NCBI GenBank assembly: GCA_026416375.1
Contig: JAOAFI010000030.1
Location: forward strand, 1-50,922
DNA: 50,922 nucleotides
Direction of reading: 5' to 3'
Source: Patescibacteria group bacterium
GTDB lineage: Bacteria > Patescibacteriota > Microgenomatia > UBA1406 > GWC2-37-13
A model generated the notes under the pieces. It was not told the origin of the DNA, ran no database searches, and worked only from the letters and a program-made list of their open reading frames with translations. This document shows, piece after piece, positions 16,016 through 38,292 of the stretch (the first letter of the stretch is position 1; each line of letters opens with the position of its first letter). A program made the position numbers and the translations under genes.

Positions 16016-16146
16016 ATCTAACATCTAACATTTAACTTCTAACATCTAATGTATAACATATAACGTGTAATCGTAACTTTAGAAAGTTTAGCGGGTTTTT
16101 AAGAGTTTAGAGAGTTTTATTGTTTTTTTTAGTTTTGAGTTAATTA
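16016..16146 (+). repeat. Composite intergenic repeat, locus L1 (F1-F2-F3 order)
   Basis: TAACATC TAACATT TAACTTC TAACATC TAATGTA TAACATA TAACGTG (16019-16067), then AGTTTAGCGGGTTTTT...GAGTTTTATTGTTTTTTTTAGTTTTGAGTT. Confidence 0.7.
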
Positions 16147-16150
16147 AATA

Positions 16151-16175
16151 GGATCCCCGCTTTCGCGAGGATGAC
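16151..16175. repeat. Hairpin repeat, GGATGAC-tailed type
   Basis: GGATCCCCGCTTTCGCGAGGATGAC: stem ATCCCCGC/GCGAGGAT around TTTC. Confidence 0.65.
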
Positions 16176-21177: not shown

Positions 21178-21179
21178 AA

Positions 21180-21549
21180 ATAACTCAAAACTCAAAAGTC
21201 AAAACTCAAAACTAAAAACAATAAAACCCGCTAAATTCTCTACTAAACTCATAAAATAAATAATAGACTTGGAAAACTAATTTTTAATAAATTAATTTTT
21301 ATTCAATAATTAATAATTTAATAAATTAATAAAAAAATATTTAATTATTATTAAATATCAAAAAAACTAAAAAATCTTTAATCTTTAATATTTTTTTAAT
21401 ATATTTATCCTTTTATCATTTAATTTCAACTCGCTAAATTTTTTAAACTCGCAAAACTAATTTAATAAGAAAAATAAAAAAAGATCCTGGAACAAGTTCA
21501 GGATGACACAAATGTTAAATGTTAGACGTTAGAAGTTAGTTATTAGTTG
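21180..21549 (-). repeat. Composite intergenic repeat, locus L2 (inverted copy, between convergent ftsK and mltG)
   Basis: Reverse complement reads F1 (21511-21545), hairpin, AT block, F2 (AGAATTTAGCGGGTTTTATTG) and F3 (TTTTGAG heptads, 21182-21216). Confidence 0.7.
21483..21508. repeat. Hairpin repeat, GGATGACA-tailed type, inside L2
   Basis: GATCCTGGAACAAGTTCAGGATGACA: ATCCTGGAAC pairs with GTTCAGGAT with one bulge. Confidence 0.65.
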
Positions 21550-28636: not shown

Positions 28637-29803
28637 ATGTTAAGAAAAATAAAAAATTTTTTTCATTTAATTGAGGCTTTGATTGCTAATATTATTTATA
28701 GTTTTCCATCAAAAAAAATAAAAGTTATTGGTGTTACTGGAACAGATGGCAAAACAACAACGACAAGTTTTCTGGCTCATCTTTTAAAACAATCAGGAAA
28801 AAAAGTTTCTTTTGTTTCAACTGTTTATGCTCAAATTGCCGATAAAATTTATGATACTGGTCTTCATGTGACTACTCCTTCGTCATTTATGATTCAGCGT
28901 TTTTTAAATAAAGCAGTAAAAAATAAAGATGAATTTTTTGTTTTAGAAACCACTTCTCATGCTTTGGATCAAAATCGAGTTTGGGGAGTGAATTTTGAGA
29001 TTGGAGTTTTGACAAATATCACTCATGAGCATTTAGATTATCATAAAACTTATGAAAATTATGTTAAAGCAAAATGTAAGTTATTAAAAAATTCAAAAAT
29101 AATTGTTATTAACCAAGAGGATAATTCTTATAAATATGTCTTAAATCAAATTAAAAATTCAAAATTAAAAATTCAAAATTATAATTCAAAACTAAAAATT
29201 TTAGATAAAGTACCTAATTTGACAAAATTTAATCGTTTTAATTTTTCAGCTGGTTATCAAGTGGCAAAAATTTTAAATATCAGCGATGATGATTTTTTAA
29301 AAGCAGTTAAAACTTTTAAGCTTCCTCAAGGAAGGCTTGACTTGATTTATGATAAAGATTTTAAAGTGATTATTGATTTTGCCCATACTCCAAATGCTTT
29401 TAAAGAACTTTTGCCTGAGATAAAAAAAATTTATTTGAAAAAAAGTGGGCGGTTGATTCATGTTTTTGGATCAGCTGGACTTCGCGATTCTTCAAAAAGG
29501 CCTTTAATGGGCAGATATTCAAGTCAGTATTCTGATTATATTATTTTGACTGAAGAAGATTATCGGACTGAGGATCCAAAAAAAATCTGCCAGCAAATTG
29601 CTTCTGGATTTATTAATAAGAAAATTAATTACGAGACGATTATTAATAGAAAAGAAGCAATTAAAAAAGCTTTAAAAATGGCTAAAAAAAATGATGTTGT
29701 TTTGTTGACTGGCAAAGGCCATGAAAAAAGTTTGTGCCGGGGAAAAAAAGAATATCCTTGGAGTGATTATGAGGCGGTTAAAGAAATATTAAAAATTAAT
29801 TAG
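28637..29803 (+). CDS. murE: Mur ligase, MurE-like, short form
   Basis: GVTGTDGKTTTTSFLAHLL, TTSHALDQNRVWGVNFEIGVLTNITHEHLDYHKTYENY, ILTEEDYRTEDPKKI. Confidence 0.85.
   Translation: MLRKIKNFFHLIEALIANIIYSFPSKKIKVIGVTGTDGKTTTTSFLAHLLKQSGKKVSFVSTVYAQIADKIYDTGLHVTTPSSFMIQRFLNKAVKNKDEFFVLETTSHALDQNRVWGVNFEIGVLTNITHEHLDYHKTYENYVKAKCKLLKNSKIIVINQEDNSYKYVLNQIKNSKLKIQNYNSKLKILDKVPNLTKFNRFNFSAGYQVAKILNISDDDFLKAVKTFKLPQGRLDLIYDKDFKVIIDFAHTPNAFKELLPEIKKIYLKKSGRLIHVFGSAGLRDSSKRPLMGRYSSQYSDYIILTEEDYRTEDPKKICQQIASGFINKKINYETIINRKEAIKKALKMAKKNDVVLLTGKGHEKSLCRGKKEYPWSDYEAVKEILKIN
29147..29200 (+). repeat. Heptad array within the murE coding sequence
   Basis: CAAATTA AAAATTC AAAATTA AAAATTC AAAATTA TAATTC AAAACTA AAAATT, encoding QIKNSKLKIQNYNSKLKI. 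Confidence 0.8.
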
Positions 29804-29837
29804 TTTAGCGGGTTTAGAGGGTTAGCGAGTTTAAAAT

Positions 29838-30584
29838 ATGTTTTTTAATTCTAATTTAAAGATATTTACTTCTTTTTTAATCAATAATAATTATTTTCTT
29901 GCTGGTTTTGGAACAAAAGAATTAGGCGATGGAAGAAAAAGCGAAAACTTAATTTCTTTTTTTAAAAAAAACAATATTAATTTTTCCAAAATTATAGTAC
30001 CAAAACAAATTCATTCAACTAATGTTTATTTTTATCAACAAGCTACAAATCCATTTTTAGTTGAAAAGATAGAAGATATTGATGGTCTGATAACTAAGGA
30101 AAAAGATGTAGTTTTAACAGTAATAACAGCTGACTGTGTGCCAATAATTTTTATTGAAGAAAAAGAAAAAATTATTGGTATTTCTCATCAAGGCTGGAGG
30201 GGAAGCATCAAGCGGATGAGCCAAAAAATGATTGATAAGGTGATTGAGGCAGGAGGAAAGATTGAAAATTTAAAAATATTGATTGGACCGTCAATTGGGG
30301 ATTGTTGTTATGATGTTAAGGAAGAGCGGTATTATCAGTTTAAAGAAGAATTTGACAGCTATTCAGAAAAAATTTTTCGGTTTTTTAAAGGAGGATGGCA
30401 TTTGAGTTTGGCTAAATTGAATTATTTATTGCTTATTGATAAAGGAGTTAAAAAGGAAAACATCGATTTTTTTCCATTTTGCACAAATTGCGACAAAAAA
30501 AGATTTTTTTCTTATCGAAGATATAAAAGGAAAAAAAATGAAGAATATGGAGAGATGGTGAGTTTTGTGTTAAGAAAATTTTAA
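29838..30584 (+). CDS. pgeF: PgeF/YfiH-family peptidoglycan editing factor (laccase domain)
   Basis: VPKQIHSTNVYF, ITADCVPIIF, ISHQGWRGSIKRM, IGPSIGDCCYDV. Confidence 0.9.
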   Translation: MFFNSNLKIFTSFLINNNYFLAGFGTKELGDGRKSENLISFFKKNNINFSKIIVPKQIHSTNVYFYQQATNPFLVEKIEDIDGLITKEKDVVLTVITADCVPIIFIEEKEKIIGISHQGWRGSIKRMSQKMIDKVIEAGGKIENLKILIGPSIGDCCYDVKEERYYQFKEEFDSYSEKIFRFFKGGWHLSLAKLNYLLLIDKGVKKENIDFFPFCTNCDKKRFFSYRRYKRKKNEEYGEMVSFVLRKF

Positions 30585-37911: not shown

Positions 37912-38280
37912 GTCTAACAACTAACACCTAACATCTAACGTCTAACTTCTAACCTTAACTTATAACTTGTAACGTATAACATTATTAATTATTCATTATT
38001 TATTATTAATTTATTAATTATTAAATATTAAATAAAAATTAAAAATTAATTTATTAAAAATTATTTTTTTTAAAGTTTATTATTTAGTTTATGAGTTTAG
38101 AAGGTTAGAAAATTAACGAGTTTAGAAGATTAGAGGGTTTATTATTATTATTAAGTTTGAGAATTTAAAAAGTTAGTGAGTTTATAGAGTTAACAAATTT
38201 TAGTTTAAAGTTATAGTTTTAAGTTTTGAGTTATAGTTTTGAGTTTTAAATTTTGAGTTTTGAGATTTAAGATTTTTAAG
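37912..38280 (+). repeat. Composite intergenic repeat, locus L3 (F1-AT-F2-F3)
   Basis: TAACNNN heptads 37915-37983; AT block with AATTTATTAAAAATTA; TTTATGAGTTTAGAAGGTTAG...; TTTTGAG heptads to 38275. Confidence 0.7.
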
Positions 38281-38292
38281 TATAATTATTAT

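Follow-up and report, generated by a model that had tools for sequence, protein, structure and literature searches.

The gap between mraY and murD in the cell-wall gene cluster of a Roizmanbacteria-like bacterium holds a single copy of a dispersed composite repeat, at positions 37915-38280 of the window (the whole 50,922-nt stretch of DNA analysed here). Its modules recur at other loci in the host genome, always in one order and on one strand. The element is probably a lineage-specific, non-autonomous, BOX/BIME-like composite intergenic repeat of heptamer arrays that spread by segmental copying. The host, assigned to Candidatus Roizmanbacteria by its MraY relatives, is represented by a 764-kb assembly in 63 contigs (93% complete).

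The mraY-murD copy lies on the forward strand and consists of F1, (TAACNNN)n, followed by an AT block, a 30-nt core (GTTTATTATTTAGTTTATGAGTTTAGAAGG), F2, (GTTTAGNNG)n, and F3, (TTTTGAG)n. A first-pass annotation of the window had described ordered blocks in this gap, all of which we recovered where it had placed them. F1 (37915-37980) is a polar array of TAACNNN heptads (AAC, ACC, ATC, GTC, TTC ... TTA, TTG, GTA) at 37915-37953 and 37956-37980, with its first TAAC beginning 9 nt downstream of the mraY stop codon. The AT block (37981-38074) includes AATAAAAATTAAAAATTAATTTATTAAAAATTA, with AATTTATTAAAAATTA at 38048-38063, and leads into the core (38075-38104). F2 (38098-38195) is composed of degenerate GTTTAG/GTTAG units and F3 (38196-38280) of TTTTGAG-type heptads, with TTTTGAG units proper at 38224-38264. 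Outside the element lies the ancestral murD junction (TATAATTATTAT, 38281-38292, forward strand), in which a TATAAT (38281-38286) stands six nt 5' of the murD ATG (38293). The mechanically called murD open reading frame starts at a TTG (38260) that falls within F3; translation is likely to begin at the ATG (38293).

Other copies occur in the window. That reported at 16016-16146 is real and keeps the order F1-F2-F3 (16019-16146, forward strand), with F1 passing directly into F2 (from 16086) and then F3 (16133-16139); the AT block and core are missing. The inverted copy reported at 21180-21549 is complete, with all modules in order on the reverse strand at 21178-21549 and an extra GATCC/GGATGAC palindrome at 21483-21507. 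A fragment comprising the end of the AT block and F2 (AATTAATTAGTTTAGCGGGTTTAGAGGGTTAGCGAG; 29781-29838, forward strand) is located at a gene boundary. We also observed a second repeat family, of GC-richer palindromes, within or adjoining the composite at 16151-16175 and 21483-21507 in the window and at many other loci; its members are of the GGATCCCCGCTTTCGCGAGGATGAC type, with TCCGCCAACTGGCGGA and AGGACTGTCCT also represented.

Module order and strand were assessed in 323 kb of sampled stretches, many picked around F1 or F3 matches but none on the basis of order or strand; genome-wide repeat counts came from pattern searches over the whole genome. All 109 of 109 neighbouring module pairs (different modules no more than 450 nt apart) lay on one strand in the order F1, AT, core, F2, F3. 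Within 30 kb of intergenic DNA from these stretches, F1, AT block, core, F2 and F3 gave 22, 17, 11, 41 and 11 matches, respectively, compared with means of 0.008, 0.17, 0.004, 0.09 and 0.11 in 500 dinucleotide shuffles of the same DNA. At least three modules were present in 19 intergenic regions, whereas each of the 500 AT-matched shuffles contained no such region, and a chance origin of the multi-block order is thereby rejected. The F1 pattern matched 58 times genome-wide, versus 0 for the reversed pattern. With ~25 more module-bearing loci in the host genome, which follow the order and strand without exception, these results bear out the first-pass proposal of a dispersed, fixed-order element over independent slippage. 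The proposal thus passes both refutation tests set in that annotation, namely equally good multi-block alignments in shuffled DNA and a lack of further ordered copies in the genome. Although Patescibacteria are regarded as streamlined, modules of this one young, ordered repeat family are present in most of the longest gaps sampled (23 of 38 of at least 250 nt).

Module content differs between copies, and the mraY-murD copy is itself a mosaic. Its 5' part is 87% like a copy on contig C18 and its middle 93-95% like copies on C18, C2 and C27 (over 74-78 nt, the AT block is 95% identical to copies C2b and C27), and its 3' 122 nt (38147-38268) are 99% identical to copies at the ends of contigs C15 and C54, where the upstream context is cut by the contig ends. 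Contigs C5, C9, C13, C14, C15 and C54 all end in or near repeat copies; the repeat therefore probably breaks the assembly at several contig ends, and the true copy number is likely to be higher than that counted. Copies are found in all gene orientations, including between convergent and divergent genes, which argues against a fixed promoter or terminator role. A terminator or promoter cassette was rejected on this ground and because a search for a terminator-like site found none.

Of the 13 copies of the core in the host genome, 7 are exact and 6 are near matches; the 56 relatives searched, 19 of them congeners, have none. Nor was the core found in viral contigs, on which basis viral spread was rejected. 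F1-type arrays are patchy, being present in 21 of 57 genomes (host included) with heptads that differ by species. The closest syntenic relative, a sister species (G010; 91% identity for an FtsK fragment and 82% for MraY), has a composite of its own, in which F1 heptads as in the host are followed by TAATTAACCTAATTGATCTAA-type units, an AT block and finally GTCAAAA/TTTTGAC heptads. Order is largely kept in this composite too (36 pairs follow it and 1 does not); most of its opposite-strand pairs involve modules 4 and 5, the pattern of each matching the reverse complement of the other. With a core absent from the relatives searched, the host element thus appears to represent a new family of small repeats that spread. 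The G010 version, with the same F1 heptads and other middle and 3' blocks, makes the birth, spread and turnover of heptad arrays testable across close genomes.

The mraY-murD junction is an empty site in several relatives (L128, L160, L130, L134 and L142), where ~9-21 nt separate the mraY stop from the murD start. The junction in L128 reads AAGTAAC-TATAATAATTATATGGCT, versus AAATAATAATTCG-element-TTTTTAAG-TATAATTATTATATGGCT in the window; on this alignment, the mraY-murD copy was inserted into, or overwrote, the sequence separating the mraY stop from the ancestral TATAAT. The first-pass annotation had placed that TATAAT at the end of the block series, but it is ancestral rather than part of the element because a near-identical motif is present at the L128 empty site. 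G010 has a 6.2-kb insert at this junction, which contains a CRISPR-Cas12d locus and terminates in an inverted F1 fragment; the junction therefore tolerates insertions. This insert (L272:191-6211, where L272 is G010:C3:49100-55500) encodes Cas1 and a Cas12d (CasY) gene split into two open reading frames, and its CRISPR array has repeats of ~25 nt and spacers of 18-19 nt. A fragmented CasY has been reported from hot-spring Roizmanbacteria (PMC6509639). A stretch of host contig C2 (L090:4167-4408) is similar to sequence next to the Cas12d locus in G010 (GGGTCCCTAACCC...TGAGCGC) and is possibly a Cas12d-associated guide-helper RNA. At metG and ftsK-mltG, G010 has other heptad-rich sequence where window copies sit; gap sequence therefore turns over fast, and these two junctions are not clean empty sites.

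F1 arrays are polar, with heptads ending in C first, then those ending in T and then those ending in A or G. The polarity score is 208 in the host, compared with 0±31 when shuffled (0 of 2,000 shuffles), and 36 in G010, compared with 0±11 (1 of 2,000). The start of F1 usually coincides with a functional boundary: it follows a stop codon or the end of a tRNA by a few nucleotides, or lies immediately beyond the -10 box of a divergent gene. Nine loci have an upstream coding sequence in the same orientation, and in 6 of them a TAA of F1 serves as the stop codon of that gene; for one gene with its stop inside F1, the G010 orthologue has different terminal residues. The 3' ends of host genes may be set by repeat insertion, which is a warning for annotation. 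In F1 and F3, TAA and TGA recur at a period of 7, so that every forward frame meets a stop codon.

We suggest that copying carried an ancestral unit of fixed polarity (F1 heptads followed by AT block, core, F2 and F3) to dozens of gene boundaries. Recombination between loci, or gene conversion, would then have remodelled these copies, giving mosaic blocks and near-identical segments, and 7-nt slippage within the heptad arrays would have altered them further. The element would act as selfish or neutral filler, its extent bounded by genes and promoter -10 boxes. It may survive at gene ends because of the stops that F1 and F3 carry in every forward frame, such that landing on the 3' end of a gene would merely trim or re-terminate it. 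We infer both the copying mechanism and the absence of a positive function. Selection for function is possible, as F1 polarity is kept in two species and neutral slippage alone would erode it.

Other explanations fit parts of these data. Slippage of AT-rich heptads arising independently at every locus, with coincidental order, would be in keeping with the predominance of period-7 recurrence in intergenic DNA (10.8 per thousand positions at lag 7 and 6.0 at lag 14, versus at most 2.1 at other lags) and with the wide occurrence of heptads in bacteria (PMC4692102, PMC4679880). It is refuted as a full explanation, and scarcely credible as one, given the exact 30-nt core at 7 loci, the module order and strand kept by 109 of 109 pairs, and a 122-nt segment that is 99% identical at three loci; slippage does contribute to array length. 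We consider a structured non-coding RNA or terminator highly improbable. The CTAAC of F1 can pair with GTTTAG/GTTAG of F2 in predicted folds, but single-copy RNA folds no better than shuffles (z of -0.2 and -1.3), RNAalifold returned no consensus pairs in the core and an Rfam covariance search gave no match. These results led us to reject a structured RNA, and they lend no support to the non-coding RNA option raised in the first-pass annotation. A miniature inverted-repeat transposable element (MITE) with defined ends, mobilized by a transposase whose autonomous partner is lost or lies in the unassembled part of the genome, would account for the empty site at mraY-murD and for recent near-identical copies. 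Many F3 ends close with GAGTTATTTTT, to which the AAAAACA 5' ends are loosely complementary. However, 5' ends vary between copies, with only five beginning AAAAACA, no consistent terminal inverted repeat was found, and module content is variable. No target duplication was seen in flanks inspected by eye or between the mraY-murD copy and the L128 empty site, and Y1 transposase (PF01797), RVT_1 reverse transcriptase and rve were not found in the 93% complete assembly. These negative enzyme searches, and a near-inverted repeat (AAAAACAACT...AGTTATTTTT) confined to a minority of 5' ends, led us to reject a clean-ended transposon, and we regard the MITE explanation as quite unlikely. With non-uniform ends and no target duplication seen, true transposition is not demonstrated.

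A regulatory role has more to recommend it in where F1 sits, within a few nucleotides of stops or just past -10 boxes, and in the heptad polarity common to two species. The heptads could be putative DNA or RNA sites for a protein that reads 7 nt at a time (Csp- or S1-like), making the composite a mobile regulatory cassette at gene boundaries; the TAACTGA heptads of Beggiatoaceae have been proposed as Csp, S1 or Csr binding sites (PMC4679880). Against this, copies sit in every gene orientation, convergent and divergent pairs included, module content is variable and the core is missing from all 56 relatives searched, and we give the regulatory explanation a small but real chance. A more specific and more speculative form, which we doubt, is a functional boundary cassette with a polar heptad code (TAACxxC to TAACxxT to TAACxxR) read by a putative 7-nt-stepping protein, equipped with all-frame stops and copied to boundaries; if true, its role in a streamlined genome would be to insulate transcription or translation. 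We retain segmental copying of a non-autonomous repeat as the favoured explanation.

An open-licence literature search returned no paper on such repeats in Roizmanbacteria, an absence that is no proof of novelty, and term searches of a paper on CRISPR in hot-spring Roizmanbacteria (PMC6509639) found no mention of them. Among known systems, the element is likened by its organization to BOX of Streptococcus pneumoniae (boxA-boxB(n)-boxC; PMC3049150), with which it shares ordered distinct modules, a variable internal tandem part, dispersal and a non-autonomous character. BOX differs in its predicted stem-loop folding and its terminal inverted repeats like those of ISSpn2 (PMC3049150), whereas the element has no structure, no consistent inverted ends and modules that are mostly heptad or nonad arrays. 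BIME/REP (REPIN) sequences are likewise mosaic intergenic repeats of several motifs, but have palindromic units and RAYT transposases (PMC2817692, PMC3116915); the element is non-palindromic, its core lacks consensus pairing and no Y1 transposase was found. The TAACTGA repeats of Beggiatoaceae, Cyanobacteria and Bacteroidetes also consist of intergenic TAACNNN heptads with three-frame stops, and some arrays overlap the stop codon of the upstream gene; they use one fixed heptad per array, however, and lie mostly just 5' of start codons (PMC4679880), whereas in the element NNN changes in a polar fashion along an array that forms the 5' module of its ordered composite. The heptanucleotide repeats of Calothrix (STRR), Nostoc and Xanthomonas share the 7-nt period, intergenic location, many copies and variable unit number, but are single-motif arrays with no ordered multi-block unit, and those of Xanthomonas and Nostoc are G-rich and quadruplex-capable (PMC4692102). 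One homogeneous motif per array is ruled out as a full account of the element by its ordered multi-block unit, polar heptads and unique core. The element therefore matches neither the BOX nor the TAACTGA/STRR definition in full, and as a composite it ties scattered reports of heptamer repeats in bacteria to a mobile-type unit.
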